Of a DNA stretch of 21,133 nt, positions 4,640 through 9,457 are shown piece by piece. Both the position numbers and the translations under genes were made by a program. The stretch is from a virus: positions 1-21,133 of the IMG/VR virus record IMGVR_UViG_3300006919_000574; one strand, written 5' to 3'. Under the pieces are notes generated by a model, which saw only the letters and a list, made by a program, of their open reading frames with translations, made no database searches and was not told the origin of the DNA. Positions within the stretch are counted from its first letter, which is position 1, and each line of letters opens with the position of its first letter.

Positions 4640-4834
4640 TTACCCAGGATCGTATTCCTCGTAATCATTCGCTCGACTTATTTCTTCTTCAAGTGCGTCA
4701 ACAACATCTGCTAAGACTCTGTTTGCACCTAACGGGAGAATAAGGTCATCATCTCCGTTTTTTTCCATGCAATCTTCAACCAATATTTTGGCTTTCGTTA
4801 AAAAGAATATTAGTTTTTCGTTTTGCGTTGCCAT
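4640..4834 (-). CDS. Small acidic protein of unknown function, 64 aa
   Basis: A 64-aa acidic, helical protein (TKAKILVEDCMEKN, then VLADVVDALEEEISRANDY) ending in a run of Glu, Tyr and Asp. I recognise no family. The ATG shares its A with the TAA stop of the upstream Sak4-like gene (TAATG), so the two are almost certainly translationally coupled. It lies between the recombination ATPase and the SSB-like gene, so a role in replication or recombination is the contextual guess. Confidence 0.6.
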   Translation of the reverse strand: MATQNEKLIFFLTKAKILVEDCMEKNGDDDLILPLGANRVLADVVDALEEEISRANDYEEYDPG

Positions 4835-5616
4835 TACTTCGCTATGAGTTTACCGATTTCAGCCCAAGTCTTTTCAGCTCTAACAATAAAGTCATCGCCT
4901 TCTTCTACGACTGGTATCTCTTCTGGTAATCCATATCTATTCTTGGCAACCGCAGCTGGTGATTCAGTTGTCACTAACACCCTGCCAGATTGAACAGTTT
5001 TACTTGTCAAACCTTTACTACCTTGAACTTTAACAGTTCCTTTTTTGTAGTTTAGGAATAAACACATATCACTAGCCTCTAAGACTAATGCACTTGCTGC
5101 CTTATGCATTTTTAATTCATGCCTATCGTATGCTTCGGTGCTTGGATCGTGAAATGCTTTAATTTGGTTATGAGCAATCATAACAACACGCATTTTCTTT
5201 TCGTTTCTTAATCTATTAACTAAATCAAGTATCTCTCTCCAATACTTCAACGCTTCTGCATAACCACGACCATAACCAAAAGATTCAATCGATGGTTGTT
5301 TGTGTGCCTCACAAGTCTTTGCATGAATAAGTGGCTCTAACCAATCTAAACTATCAATAACCAAAGTATTGTATTCAAGTTCATCTGCATCAACTAAAGA
5401 TTTTAGATACCCATAAAAAGTATCGTAGTCTCTTGCTAGTGGAAAGTGAGGGATGTCTCTGTTGTTAGTTAAGATTCCCAAACCTTCTTCTGTTTGCAAA
5501 ACAATAGGATTTTTACTTCCTACAGCAAGTGTTGTTTTACCTAGTCCAGAAGGACCATAGATAATGACAATACTTGGTTTTGCTTTTGCTTTCTTTTGTA
5601 TTGCTGCTAATGACAT
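4834..5616 (-). CDS. Sak4-like RecA-family ATPase (phage recombinase)
   Basis: This 260-aa P-loop ATPase has Walker A GPSGLGKTT (residues 21-29), Walker B TLVIDSLDWL (84-93, Asp88) and a sensor-like MIAHNQI (146-152). Length and motif layout match the AAA_24 / Sak4 group, RecA-core phage proteins that support single-strand annealing and recombination with a cognate SSB. The SSB-like gene lies just downstream and two nucleases upstream, a common grouping in temperate phages. The ATG shares one base with the upstream stop. The AAA_24 fold is clear; recombinase activity rests on family knowledge. Confidence 0.82.
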   Translation of the reverse strand: MSLAAIQKKAKAKPSIVIIYGPSGLGKTTLAVGSKNPIVLQTEEGLGILTNNRDIPHFPLARDYDTFYGYLKSLVDADELEYNTLVIDSLDWLEPLIHAKTCEAHKQPSIESFGYGRGYAEALKYWREILDLVNRLRNEKKMRVVMIAHNQIKAFHDPSTEAYDRHELKMHKAASALVLEASDMCLFLNYKKGTVKVQGSKGLTSKTVQSGRVLVTTESPAAVAKNRYGLPEEIPVVEEGDDFIVRAEKTWAEIGKLIAK

Positions 5617-5912
5617 TAGTTAATCTCCTTAGTGACACCTTCTAACTTCACAGGTTTTTTATAAGGCGGTAGTTCTGCTTCTAACTTCTCTAAAGTGTTA
5701 GCTACATTTTTTCTAACCGACTCCATGTGATGCACAGTTTTAGTTGCCAGTTGATAGGCTTCGTTTAACTGTTGCTCTGCTTGCAAGTCTTTACTGATTT
5801 CTTCAACCATAGGTCTTGTTCTATCAGTTAAGTCTCTCTCAAATATCTCTCTTGGGTTTCCGTCTTTATCCGTAAAACTCAAAAGAGGTTGCTCTTTCTT
5901 TTCATTTACCAT
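5616..5912 (-). CDS. Helical protein of unknown function, 98 aa
   Basis: From the ATG at 5910-5912 this is a 98-aa, mostly helical, charged protein. A segment FTDKDGNPREIFERDLTD leads into a long helix (VEEISKDLQAEQQLNEAYQL) and a second helix with coiled-coil character. The start is chosen for GGAGGA about seven bases upstream; a longer reading would run far into the nuclease gene. It overlaps the nuclease stop by 11 bp and shares one base with the Sak4-like start. I do not recognise a family. Context suggests an accessory of replication or recombination. Confidence 0.6.
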   Translation of the reverse strand: MVNEKKEQPLLSFTDKDGNPREIFERDLTDRTRPMVEEISKDLQAEQQLNEAYQLATKTVHHMESVRKNVANTLEKLEAELPPYKKPVKLEGVTKEIN

Positions 5913-6645
5913 TTGTATCCTCCATGGATTTATATGTTTCGCAAACTTCTTTGTGTGAACAGAATTTGCACCAAGTTCCAGCATTAAAGCTAGGCTCATC
6001 ACCCATTGCTTCATCACAAGCTGGTTTTAGAATATTCAAACCCCAGTCAACTAAGTCGACTGCTTGAATATCCCAAGTTCGTATAGGCCCATCTTTATGA
6101 AAGGCTTTTTTGTTTGGTTGTATGATTGTCATTTCTATGACTGTATCTTCGTTACCCCATCTTGATAGGCAACCTAGGGCGTAGCACATTAGCTGTTCGT
6201 TCATCACAACATCTACCGCCCATGCACCAGACTTTAAATCGCCAACGACCATTCTATTACCTTCGCCCAGGATAACTGCATCAGCAGTTCCCCAGAGATC
6301 ATCATTTATATCTGGAGCATTTACTTTTTCTTCTACAAGTAATTTACCGTTTAGTTCTTCAGTTCTTCTATTAATGTATTCAACATAGATTTCTGCCATG
6401 TCGATATCATCTTGCGTGATATCAAAACTAAATCCGTCAACATCTACCGTTCTACCAAGATAGTAGTCTGATAATGTAATTCCATCTAATCTGTTTTTAA
6501 GCAAGGCTTCTACCATTTCGTGAGTAGAAGTACCTCTAGCTGCTGCCATGCTACCTTTACGTTCCGCAGCTGCGTTTATCTTTGCACTAGCTGGACATCT
6601 AATAATTCTATTAATGCTACTGGGTGACAATATCGCGTGTGACAA
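5902..6645 (-). CDS. Cas4/RecB-like PD-(D/E)XK nuclease (DUF2800-like)
   Basis: This 247-aa nuclease carries the PD-(D/E)XK core in the sequence WGTADAVI (118-125, Asp122) then VVGDLKSG (133-140, Asp136 and Lys138), with Gln151 downstream. Cys17 (IIRCPAS) and the C-terminal triple Cys226, Cys229 and Cys235 (CKFCSHKEVC) form the four-cysteine Fe-S signature of Cas4/AddB-type nucleases. The layout matches DUF2800 phage proteins, expected to resect DNA ends for the Sak4/SSB recombination pair. Translation starts at TTG: no ATG occurs before residue 33, which would delete the first cysteine, and a GAGGAG site lies seven bases ahead of the TTG. Confidence 0.85.
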   Translation of the reverse strand: MSHAILSPSSINRIIRCPASAKINAAAERKGSMAAARGTSTHEMVEALLKNRLDGITLSDYYLGRTVDVDGFSFDITQDDIDMAEIYVEYINRRTEELNGKLLVEEKVNAPDINDDLWGTADAVILGEGNRMVVGDLKSGAWAVDVVMNEQLMCYALGCLSRWGNEDTVIEMTIIQPNKKAFHKDGPIRTWDIQAVDLVDWGLNILKPACDEAMGDEPSFNAGTWCKFCSHKEVCETYKSMEDTNGK

Positions 6646-7039
6646 GTCCGTACTCCTCTCTGATTAGTGCTGCAAATAGTTCCGTAGAAATATTCATAGC
6701 AATATTAAAATCTTCCATTTCAAATAAATTGTTTTTGATGGCGTAAGTGTTTGCAATCATTACACGCCAGTCTGATCTATCAGCTCTAAACCATAAGCAT
6801 GGCAAGAGTCTTACCTTCTTTGCTTGTGTGGTTGTTTGTTCCCAGAAGTTTTTTAAGTCTCCTGGTGTTATAACTTTTCTTCTTTTAACTTCGATTGCAA
6901 AACCATCTAAGCCAAGTAGGTCGTGACCACCGCCGAATGTTTGTGAGTAGTTTACTTCTAATTGGATACCTAAAAGTTCTTTGATTTCATCAATGACCTC
7001 TCGTTCTCCACGCCTACCTTTATTTCTAGCGTTGACCAA
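6617..7039 (-). CDS. Holliday-junction-resolvase-like PD-(D/E)XK nuclease
   Basis: This 140-aa protein begins with a basic helix, KGRRGEREVIDEIKELLG (Glu12/Glu14), then GGGHDLLGLDGFAIEVKRRK (36-55) with Asp40, Glu50 and Lys52. This is the complete E...D...ExK set of small resolvase-type PD-(D/E)XK enzymes such as archaeal Hjc and phage analogues. It would cut branched recombination or replication intermediates before packaging. The start is TTG at 7037-7039, one base after the upstream stop, with GGAG six bases before it. It overlaps the downstream nuclease by 29 bp. Nuclease fold is well supported; the junction-specific role is inferred from family and neighbours. Confidence 0.78.
   Translation of the reverse strand: MVNARNKGRRGEREVIDEIKELLGIQLEVNYSQTFGGGHDLLGLDGFAIEVKRRKVITPGDLKNFWEQTTTQAKKVRLLPCLWFRADRSDWRVMIANTYAIKNNLFEMEDFNIAMNISTELFAALIREEYGLVTRDIVTQ
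6643..6658 (-). promoter_or_regulatory. Ribosome-binding site that fixes a TTG start
   Basis: GAGGAG (minus strand, 6653-6658) lies seven bases before TTG at 6643-6645. It justifies the non-ATG start of the Fe-S nuclease and keeps its first cysteine. Confidence 0.7.
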
Positions 7040-7040
7040 G

Positions 7041-7223
7041 TTACTCTCCGACTTGTGATGATTCTTCTAGCTTTTTGATTTCCTCGAACTTGTATCTAAC
7101 TTGACCGCCTAACTTTACATACGATGGTCCTTTGCCATGTGAACGCCAGTTCTCTAAAGTTCTTGGAGACATTCCCCAACGCTCAGCAAGTTCGTTTTGA
7201 TTTAAAAATATTTTTTCTTCCAT
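7041..7223 (-). CDS. Excisionase-like HTH (MerR/HTH_17) protein
   Basis: This 60-aa protein has the HTH_17/AlpA layout: LNQNELAERWGMSPRTLENW (7-26) gives the helix-turn-helix and YVKLGGQVRYKFEEI (35-49) the short wing that ends in a R-Y/F-x-x-x-E/D-I motif. Such proteins bend DNA at attachment sites as Xis or act as small transcription regulators. It is the first gene of the leftward replication operon and lies 430 bp from the end of int, with the DUF3310 gene in between. ATG start with a weak AGGT upstream. Excisionase or early regulator cannot be decided from sequence. Confidence 0.75.
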   Translation of the reverse strand: MEEKIFLNQNELAERWGMSPRTLENWRSHGKGPSYVKLGGQVRYKFEEIKKLEESSQVGE

Positions 7224-7252
7224 GTTATTACCTATTACTTCGTGATTGTGAT

Positions 7253-7282
7253 ATTCTACTCGATGTAATTTTAATAAAGCAA
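7253..7282 (-). promoter_or_regulatory. Candidate promoter of the replication operon
   Basis: Minus-strand TTGCTT (7277-7282) and TAGAAT (7253-7258) are 18 bases apart; the -10 differs from TATAAT at one position. It ends 29 bases before the ATG of the excisionase-like gene. It is the best match in the 160-bp gap between the divergent genes. I see no convincing promoter for the plus-strand gene, though the gap is AT-rich. Confidence 0.5.
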
Positions 7283-7383
7283 GTAGCTGAACAAAAATAA
7301 TAGAAATAATATTGAGATTTAAACTACAGAAAAAAATTACATAAAATTTATCAATAAAATTAAATCATTATTTGGAGGAATAA

Positions 7384-7659
7384 ATGAGTATAGATAATGC
7401 AACACCTGAAGAGTGGGATAGAGCCAGAATGAAAGCAACACAAAAACAAATTGGTGGAAGCCATTACAAAGATAAAGGCATACAACCATTGGAGTATGCT
7501 TACAGTAATGGATTAACGCCTAACTTAACTAATGTAGTTAAGTATGTAACCAGAGAAAAAGAAGATAGAGTGAAAGACTTACGAAAAGCCATTCACTATA
7601 TCGAACTTGAATTAGAAATGGTCTACGGTGTTGACCCAGACGGTAACCCTTTAGATTAA
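7384..7659 (+). CDS. DUF3310 family protein
   Basis: The only plus-strand gene, 91 aa. KQIGGSHYKDKGIQPLEYAY (residues 21-40) followed by NVVKYVTREK and DLRKAIHYIELELE is the hallmark of DUF3310, a small phage family. Part of phage T7 gp1.7, which has nucleotide kinase activity, is related to it. Whether this short form has any kinase activity cannot be told; no P-loop is present. GGAGG lies five bases before the ATG, a strong ribosome site. It diverges from the excisionase-like gene and converges on int. Its TAA (7657-7659) overlaps the stop of int on the other strand inside TTAATTAATTAA. Confidence 0.82.
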   Translation: MSIDNATPEEWDRARMKATQKQIGGSHYKDKGIQPLEYAYSNGLTPNLTNVVKYVTREKEDRVKDLRKAIHYIELELEMVYGVDPDGNPLD

Positions 7660-8774
7660 TTAATTAACTTTACAGAACCATCATCTATTGCATTACCAAC
7701 TAAGCTGGCATTTGTAGTAGATGTTTGGTCGTAGATGTGCATATATCTATCCATTGATGCTAGACTTGTATGACCAAGTAAAGTTCCAACTTCTTTAGTA
7801 GACATCTTCCCAGAGTTTATAGCTGTTGAGGCATAAGAGTGTCTTAGATCATGCAGTTGTAAATCTGGACAACCGCATACTTCTCTTGTTTTATTCCAAA
7901 TTTTTCTAACACTTTTTACTTTAACTATAGTGCTGTCTTCAGACTTATTAGTTAAATTATTTAGCTTATAAATAATTTTCATAGCCTGGTCGTTTAACCA
8001 AATAACTCTTTTCTTATTTGTTTTTAACCCAGTCTTATGGTCTAAAACTGGTAATTCTATTCTATTACCTCTCTCATCTTGGACTAGATGTTTCCATTTA
8101 GCTTTAGATATTTCATCGCCTCTGGCACCAGTAAAGAACTGTAGTCCTATTTTAGATACTGAATATATAAGACTAGGGTCTTCTTCATATCTTCTGGCTA
8201 GTTCTATAAAGATAGCTTTCTTTTCTTCATCTGTGTAATACCTACTTCTTGCCACCTCATAGTTTTTGCTTATCTTTTTAGTAGGGTTTTTATCTAACAG
8301 TTCCAATACATCGATAGAATAGTAGTAAGCTGCTTTTAAAAATACTAAACATTTATTTGCTACCGTTGGACTTCTTTTTGTTAGCTCCTGGAACCATTGT
8401 ACTAAATCACTTTTACTAACCTTTGACGCGGTAGTATTACCAAAGAAGGGTTGTATGTTTTTTATATAAATATTTTCTTTTGTTTTTGTTTCTTGATTTT
8501 TATGTTGCAAACTTTTGATGTAGTTCTCCCACATATTATCGACTGTATATTCATTTGCCTTTTGTTTCTTTTTCTTTTCTTCAAAAGGATCAATACCTTG
8601 TGCAATTAAACCTAATATCTTTTGTGCTTCTTTTCTTGCAATGTTTATTAATACATTTCTTGGTGCTATTTTTTTCTCTCTTCTTTTGCCATCAATTCTG
8701 CAATGAATATAGTATCCAGTTGGATAGATTTTAAGACTATTTATTTGTTTATCAGTTGTGTATTTTGCCGCCAT
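7656..8774 (-). CDS. int: Tyrosine recombinase / phage integrase
   Basis: This 372-aa integrase has all tyrosine-recombinase landmarks: Arg218 in GARGDE, Lys247 in HKTG, His308 and Arg311 in LHDLRHS, His335 in LLGHTS, and the nucleophile Tyr344 in MDRYMHI. Residues 1-60 resemble the arm-type DNA-binding domain (YYIHCRIDGKRREKKI), and 75-165 the SAM-like core-binding domain. It catalyses integration at the adjacent attachment site and, with an Xis, excision. The ATG has GGGAG six bases upstream. Its 5' leader contains one of the two 20-bp arm-like repeats, so Int binding could repress its own gene. Its stop overlaps that of the convergent DUF3310 gene by 4 bp. Confidence 0.95.
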   Translation of the reverse strand: MAAKYTTDKQINSLKIYPTGYYIHCRIDGKRREKKIAPRNVLINIARKEAQKILGLIAQGIDPFEEKKKKQKANEYTVDNMWENYIKSLQHKNQETKTKENIYIKNIQPFFGNTTASKVSKSDLVQWFQELTKRSPTVANKCLVFLKAAYYYSIDVLELLDKNPTKKISKNYEVARSRYYTDEEKKAIFIELARRYEEDPSLIYSVSKIGLQFFTGARGDEISKAKWKHLVQDERGNRIELPVLDHKTGLKTNKKRVIWLNDQAMKIIYKLNNLTNKSEDSTIVKVKSVRKIWNKTREVCGCPDLQLHDLRHSYASTAINSGKMSTKEVGTLLGHTSLASMDRYMHIYDQTSTTNASLVGNAIDDGSVKLIN

Positions 8775-8785
8775 TGTTTGCTCCC

Positions 8786-8805
8786 ATCCGTCATATATCC
8801 GTCAT
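8786..8805. repeat. Arm-type direct repeat, left copy
   Basis: ATCCGTCATATATCCGTCAT is itself two ATCCGTCAT units 11 bp apart. An identical 20-mer lies at 9036-9055. It is in the int leader, 12 bp before the ATG. Paired short direct repeats on both sides of a core are the usual arm sites of lambda-type integrases. Confidence 0.75.
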
Positions 8806-8848: not shown

Positions 8849-8876
8849 AATATAACTGATTTTATGGCGGAAACAA
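8849..8876 (-). promoter_or_regulatory. Candidate int promoter
   Basis: Minus-strand TTGTTT (8871-8876) and TATATT (8849-8854) are 16 bases apart, upstream of int with a leader of about 70 bases that includes the left arm repeat. The -10 differs from TATAAT at one base; the -35 is weak. Confidence 0.4.
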
Positions 8877-8902: not shown

Positions 8903-8915
8903 TATCAATTAGTTA
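8903..8915 (+). promoter_or_regulatory. IHF consensus site in the attachment region
   Basis: TATCAATTAGTTA matches the IHF consensus WATCAANNNNTTR at every fixed position. It lies in a very AT-rich tract 20 bp from the tRNA-like core, between core and left arm repeat, where IHF bends DNA in lambda-type intasomes. A 13-base degenerate match in AT-rich DNA can arise by chance, but the location is apt. Confidence 0.55.
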
Positions 8916-8934: not shown

Positions 8935-8972
8935 TTAAAAGGGAATTGCTCTACCAACTGAGCTAAGGGCCC
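8935..8972 (-). other. attP core: 5' half of a tRNA-Lys(UUU) gene
   Basis: Read on the minus strand from 8972, the sequence is GGGCCCT TA, D-arm GCTCAGTTGGTAGAGC, A, then anticodon stem ATTCC and loop CTTTTAA: tRNA positions 1-38 with anticodon TTT. After position 38 it turns into an A/T run, so the 3' strand of the anticodon stem, T-arm and acceptor 3' end are absent. It cannot be a working tRNA. A truncated tRNA beside an integrase, flanked by arm-like repeats, marks the phage attachment core. The shared block is the 5' part of the tRNA, not the 3' part that most integrases use. Confidence 0.85.
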
Positions 8973-9006
8973 ACACGCAGAAATCAGCCATTTTTTAGGG
9001 TATTTA

Positions 9007-9035: not shown

Positions 9036-9055
9036 ATCCGTCATATATCCGTCAT
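9036..9055. repeat. Arm-type direct repeat, right copy
   Basis: This copy is identical over 20 bp, and in the same orientation, to 8786-8805; the two start 250 bp apart and bracket the tRNA-like core. It overlaps the last five codons, including the stop, of the endonuclease gene, so the coding end and the arm site share sequence. Confidence 0.75.
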
Positions 9056-9457
9056 GCTTAAAGATTTCATAGCATCTTTAAAACTTTGGATAGAATTGGT
9101 CGACTTCATAATTTCGTCCTTTATCGTGATTTGTGTGGTTTGACAATCACAAAAGGCTCTAAAACATATAGTCTGGTATTCAAGATTTACCATAGCGACA
9201 ATATCAATTTGATTTTTTTTATAATGTCTTCCTGTTGTTGTTCTGCCTTTGCGTAAATCAAATCGCCAGTTTTTTTTTCTCTTTTCTATATGTGTAACTG
9301 TTTTAACCTGGCATCGGTAGAGTTTACTTTTCCATTCAAAGATTAAATCCGCATGGGATGTATGAGGCATTACTGTGACGGTGTCTGATTCTCTCGCAAT
9401 AACTGAGCAAGCTAGGTACTCTCCACTCCTACCTATCCGCTCCGTTTTGCGTGTCAT
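9041..9457 (-). CDS. Small PD-(D/E)XK endonuclease
   Basis: This 138-aa basic protein has G-R-S-G-E (Glu13), HADLIF with Asp37, and RCQVKTV with Gln50 and Lys52. It is a PD-(D/E)XK core with Gln replacing the central acid, as in the group I intron endonuclease-like family (PF11645-type). A basic, aromatic middle (KRKKNWRFDLRKGR) could bind DNA. It is the last leftward gene before the attachment site, 11 bp after the ejection-protein gene, and no strong ribosome site precedes its ATG. Possible roles are junction cutting, host-DNA degradation, or a homing or recombination aid. In the integrated state it would lie at one end of the prophage next to the host tRNA. Confidence 0.65.
   Translation of the reverse strand: MTRKTERIGRSGEYLACSVIARESDTVTVMPHTSHADLIFEWKSKLYRCQVKTVTHIEKRKKNWRFDLRKGRTTTGRHYKKNQIDIVAMVNLEYQTICFRAFCDCQTTQITIKDEIMKSTNSIQSFKDAMKSLSMTDI

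Follow-up and report, generated by a model that had tools for sequence, protein, structure and literature searches.

Organization of the integrase region

The window analysed here (21,133 bp of viral DNA, positions 1 to 21,133 of IMG/VR record IMGVR_UViG_3300006919_000574) encodes a tyrosine integrase next to a short block of host-like tRNA sequence (Table 1). Read along the minus strand, the order of the region is PDDEXK-like ORF, repeat, 5' leader, 38-mer, AT-rich stretch, repeat and integrase. The integrase scores just under the cut-off against Arm-DNA-bind_3. An ORF resembling the PDDEXK-like one is found in the same slot in the related contigs L009 and L218. At the place of the candidate int promoter, the relatives L007 and L009 have TTGTTT with TATAAT; a counterpart of the IHF-like site between core and int was found in neither of them. 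A small HTH_17 protein, a candidate excisionase or directionality factor, is encoded on the far side of int (window 7044-7223, minus strand).

Table 1. Features of the predicted attachment region (window coordinates).
Feature	Position	Strand	Basis
Putative attP core, positions 1-38 of SAR11 tRNA-Lys(UUU)	8935..8972	-	exact in at least 119 SAR11-type contigs; unique in window
CTTTTAA, tRNA positions 32-38, anticodon loop, likely 7-bp overlap of strand exchange	8935..8941	-	crossover position inferred
Int-side arm-type repeat GACGGATATATGACGGAT	8786..8803	-	exact copy either side of core, 0 expected
Distal arm-type repeat GACGGATATATGACGGAT, overlaps end of PDDEXK ORF	9036..9053	-	exact 18-bp copy
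Element AAAAAATGGCTGATTTCTG, phage-owned, ending 5-6 nt upstream of tRNA position 1	8978..8996	-	kept in relatives
IHF-like site AATCAGCCATTTT inside element AAAAAATGGCTGATTTCTG	8982..8994	+	12/13 to WATCARNNNNTTR
IHF-like site TATCAATTAGTTA between core and int	8903..8915	+	13/13
Candidate int promoter TTGTTT-N16-TATATT	8849..8876	-	read by eye
Tyrosine integrase, 372 aa	7656..8774	-	Pfam Phage_integrase, E 5.9e-14
PD-(D/E)XK nuclease-like ORF, upstream of core, same strand	9041..9457	-	Pfam PDDEXK_5, 26.5 bits (cut-off 26.1)

Identity of the 38-bp block

An initial annotation of this DNA, made from the sequence alone, described the block as the 5' half of a tRNA-Lys(UUU) gene that stops after position 38. 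This description is correct: positions 1-38 of SAR11 tRNA-Lys(ttt) align with the block at 38/38 bases, after which identity is lost (ATATTTT in the window, GGAATGG in the tRNA), so that the block extends as far as the anticodon loop's 3' edge. The 38-mer GGGCCCTTAGCTCAGTTGGTAGAGCAATTCCCTTTTAA, which reads from 8972 to 8935, occurs once in the window, where the chance expectation with up to three mismatches is 0.00. The annotation had also proposed that cellular tRNA-Lys genes start with this sequence. Following an exact-match scan of one-genome-per-species contigs, the 38-mer was found in at least 119 SAR11-type contigs; the matches listed come from SAR11/Pelagibacteraceae or unnamed Alphaproteobacteria represented by single-cell or metagenome assemblies. 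The sequence continues as the rest of tRNA-Lys(UUU) in 118 of the 120 matches listed, while one of the remaining two is truncated by the contig end and the other is a displaced half at an integrated element. ARAGORN detected no complete tRNA in the window.

In G003, a 1.2-Mb single-contig member of the group, family searches predicted 32 tRNA genes, and ARAGORN named one tRNA-Lys among the tRNA loci read. The host thus probably has one copy of the target gene and would probably not survive losing it.

The block occupies the attachment-like slot that had been claimed for it. As in attP sites of the anticodon-loop type, a tyrosine recombinase gene adjoins the site, the block of identity with a host tRNA is bounded at the anticodon loop and two exact 18-bp arm-type repeats (predicted binding sites) flank the core. 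Judged by these sequence features, the 38-mer is very probably the attP core. For the whole explanation, that this is a tyrosine-integrase attP targeting the anticodon loop of SAR11 tRNA-Lys(UUU) with the phage donating the 5' half of the gene, we estimate a probability of about 0.86. An exact attachment site of this kind links an uncultivated phage lineage to SAR11. Among cultured phages there is no similar DNA, and the integrase is only about 25% identical to those found there.

Modular exchange among related integrases

The best evidence for the attachment core is a modular swap among relatives of the window phage. Compared with L007, the catalytic part of the integrase (from residue 74 on) is 94% identical and the N-terminus 50% identical; L007 has the same tRNA-Lys core but arm repeats of an ACGGGG type. 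With L009 the relationship is reversed: the N-terminus is 82% identical and the catalytic part 32% identical, and L009 has GACGGAT-type arm repeats like those of the window but a tRNA-Glu core. The integrase N-terminus tracks the arm sites in these sequences and the catalytic part tracks the core, as would follow from an N-terminal domain that recognizes the arm sites and a remainder of the protein that recognizes the core.

Several tRNA genes are represented in this slot. L009 carries approximately positions 1-38 of tRNA-Glu (35 aligned, with one mismatch to SAR11); the exact L009 38-mer was found in 0 of 392 SAR11-order genomes. In L216-L218, a tRNA-Asn 5' half fills the slot, on the opposite strand; this 38-mer is exact in 3/381 alphaproteobacterial genomes, where ARAGORN calls a tRNA-Asn. 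L214 instead carries positions 33-77 of tRNA-Met, a 3' half whose 45-mer is exact in 73/392 SAR11-order genomes. The use of either half by relatives is not mentioned in the initial annotation. Because both halves are present among the four groups, there must have been at least one switch of the donated half. The series in one gene slot (Lys 5', Glu 5', Asn 5' inverted and Met 3') offers natural material for asking how integrases are retargeted and which half is donated.

The tRNA blocks of all relatives begin or end at the anticodon loop. Together with the end point of the window block, this is the basis for placing the likely crossover at CTTTTAA.

Adjacency to an integrase gene is no proof of recombination, and the half-tRNA might be a relic or serve some other function as an RNA, such as a decoy or tRNA-half RNA. 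We give very little credence to this idea: different tRNAs, and either half of them, fill the same slot by int, always bounded at the anticodon loop, and the arm repeats match the integrase N-terminus.

Predicted products of integration

If the 38-mer is the attP core as proposed, the identity would span the crossover back to tRNA position 1 and the phage would donate the 5' half. At the first junction, phage DNA, the 5' half and the host 3' half would be joined (AAATGGCTGATTTCTG + 38-mer + GGAATGGGTC) to give a complete tRNA-Lys with phage DNA upstream. At the second, the host promoter and host 5' half would be joined to the phage (host tgt-side + 38-mer + ATATTTTTTTT), facing int on the same strand. 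When these joins were made in silico, attR gave a tRNA-Lys, whereas attP and attL gave none. Since an intact tRNA-Lys arises only from phage-left, 38-mer and host 3' half, the topological argument made previously, that the rebuilt tRNA has phage DNA 5' of position 1, is correct, and it holds for a crossover anywhere in the block. The element thus holds the 5' part from which the gene is restored in silico, as in the class of islands with a 5' tDNA fragment.

The initial annotation did not comment on the fact that the host tRNA promoter would end up in front of int. No terminator-like site was found between this promoter and int, and by analogy with a characterized element (ICEKp1, below) the host tRNA promoter would drive int after integration. 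The rebuilt tRNA would in turn be transcribed from phage DNA, by a weak internal promoter or by read-through. This raises the question of how an essential and apparently single-copy tRNA is expressed once its own promoter sits at the far end of a prophage.

A more elaborate proposal is that a lysogen keeps its apparently single tRNA-Lys(UUU) gene under prophage sequence alone (a leader containing the conserved IHF-like element), with int driven by the captured host tRNA promoter, in an integrase lineage that flips between donated halves. We regard this combination as unlikely. If it were true, the tRNA and int would have swapped promoters and the viability of the lysogen would depend on the prophage.

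The upstream element

Element AAAAAATGGCTGATTTCTG (AATAAATGGCTGATTTCTG in L009) has one copy in the window and is retained in relatives whose flanks and tRNA half differ. Two readings of it were considered and rejected. First, captured host DNA does not account for it, as it is absent upstream of all of the cellular loci listed (at least 119). Second, it is not a conserved coding sequence, as the end of the PDDEXK ORF varies relative to it: the ORF ends inside the element in L009, just before it and in another frame in L007, and well before it in the window. Its absence upstream of host loci and its presence in phages with different tRNA halves indicate that the element is phage-owned.

The consensus for IHF binding is WATCARNNNNTTR. 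The reverse complement of AAAAAATGGCTGATTTCTG fits this consensus at 12/13 positions in the window and at 13/13 in the same place in L009, and for each IHF subunit G003 encodes a similar protein, scoring below the curated cut-offs. Based on this fit and on these proteins, we favour a predicted P-arm site for DNA bending rather than a promoter, and the other IHF-like site may likewise bend DNA.

A phage promoter for the rebuilt tRNA is nevertheless possible. The promoter scan reported no site in the region but is uninformative, because it also reported none upstream of a host-like SAR11 tRNA-Lys used as a control. In cyanophage P-SSP7, by contrast, a clear promoter-like TTGTTA-N16-TATAAT lies upstream of the tRNA-Leu half.

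Stable, transient or tRNA-dependent integration

No lysogen of this phage was found among the SAR11 genomes searched. A close relative of the integrase was not found in the genome contigs, and 397 genomes of the SAR11 order gave only weak, distant integrase matches (E 4e-7 or worse). A junction search had 0 matches with a pattern that fits the tRNA-Glu form only and so says nothing on Lys junctions. Contig L017, from a relative, breaks off precisely where the 38-mer does, at position 38. This is a weak hint that attP and integrated forms, with their two continuations, coexist in the sample, but phage variation at position 39 could also be the cause. In the near-identical phage L008, the half-tRNA core carries C25A, a substitution predicted to disrupt the D-stem once the tRNA is rebuilt. 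The lack of a lysogen, the lack of a promoter-like site in the region and the L008 substitution all count against the proposed explanation.

One alternative is that the site recombines but integration is transient or a dead end, as in T7-like cyanophages, so that there are no stable lysogens and it is of little consequence whether the rebuilt tRNA is expressed. It overlaps with the explanation proposed here, differing from it on the outcome and not on the identity of the site. For cyanophages whose site is the first half of tRNA-Leu, integration occurs without stable lysogeny (PMC8776855), and both the lack of lysogens among the SAR11 genomes searched and the lack of an evident promoter (in a scan that also missed the host-like control) are in keeping with such an outcome. 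Lysogens can, however, be scarce in single-cell genomes in any case. Furthermore, the core is 38/38 identical between the window and L007 while the flanks have diverged to 60-64% identity, and this perfect conservation includes positions 1-31, which are mostly dispensable for strand exchange as usually understood; it suggests that the rebuilt tRNA matters. We consider transient integration a serious contender, with somewhat less than an even chance of being correct.

In tRNA-dependent lysogeny, a complete tRNA-Lys would be encoded elsewhere on the phage and just the anticodon-loop core would matter. The strategy is apparently present at the same host gene in a SAR11 element (L027), and pelagiphage HTVC011P combines a whole tRNA-Leu with a 12-bp copy of the core. 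However, no whole tRNA above the cut-off, and thus no phage tRNA of the same isotype, was detected in the window, in a near-identical 35.6-kb contig (possibly incomplete) or in other close relatives. A full 38-bp half would also be superfluous under this strategy, whose short core does not rebuild the tRNA, whereas the 38-bp core does so in silico. For the window phage we therefore judge tRNA-dependent lysogeny to be very improbable.

Comparison with known systems

Sites of the kind proposed for the window phage, in which the phage donates the 5' half, are rare but already documented in other phages and islands; what this locus adds is the swap series and the promoter question. The earlier remark that a 5'-half arrangement is unusual agrees with the Islander survey, which contains 3,760 islands with a 3' tDNA fragment and 159 with a 5' fragment (PMC4383910). 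In those 159 of 3,919 islands, the displaced fragment is the host 5' half and the restored gene takes its 5' half from the element; this genomic survey covers integrated islands, and the comparison is one of class description. Archaeal pTN3-like integrases likewise rely on a 5' half, that of tRNA-Leu (41 bp), and restoration parts the gene from its original promoter; a review notes that such use is seldom met in bacteria (PMC8371274, PMC5495485). Integration of the archaeal elements disrupts the integrase gene, which would not happen in the window phage.

The T7-like cyanophages P-SSP7 and S-TIP37 also have a marine phage attP consisting of a tRNA 5' half (tRNA-Leu) that ends at the anticodon loop, a comparison for which the P-SSP7 sequence itself was checked. 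They are phages of another type in which the tRNA half lies downstream of int, and no promoter like that ahead of the P-SSP7 half is evident in the window. Mycobacteriophage Fionnbharth, which uses tRNA-dependent lysogeny, resembles the arrangement proposed here in its tRNA-Lys(UUU) isotype and in crossing over within a single, essential tRNA gene, but its integration does not restore the tRNA, whose loss is complemented by a phage tRNA gene. In ICEKp1, the host tRNA promoter reads into int once the element is integrated (PMC13023037), the geometry predicted for the window phage. Integration of ICEKp1 displaces the tRNA-Asn terminator, while the window phage would leave the host promoter with the 5' half only.

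tRNA sequences in other SAR11 elements and phages

Two SAR11 contigs, L027 and L105, each carry two copies of the 38-mer about 290 bp apart and were first read as 5'-half integration scars. This reading was rejected for L027 (SAR11 AG-914-G22, 6365-7998) because another 1.2 kb along comes the host 3' half, bordered by conserved host flank, which places the whole tRNA inside the element. The element of about 1.47 kb separates the 5' and 3' halves of the host tRNA-Lys and, besides GTGCAC-type repeats and two small ORFs, contains a complete tRNA-Lys of its own; no integrase was seen. It appears to be a tRNA-complementing relic or satellite. L105 (2310-2700) has an L027-type leader and a complete tRNA-Lys behind a decaying 38-mer copy, on a contig that ends ahead of the far junction and is too short to decide between the two readings. 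Two related viral contigs of another phage type, L011 (8150-8225) and L015 (6510-6585), have a complete tRNA-Lys near an integrase gene, and the leader TTGAAAAATAAAGGTT is common to L011, L027 and L105.

HTVC011P (L169) encodes a complete tRNA-Leu(UAG) right after int (5592-5676) that is identical to one SAR11 copy, and has a separate 12-bp copy of the anticodon region at about 5786-5797. By its sequence, this arrangement looks like tRNA-dependent lysogeny. In HTVC019P (L185), 15 bp right after int, on the opposite strand (4712-4726), match the anticodon stem-loop of SAR11 tRNA-Cys.
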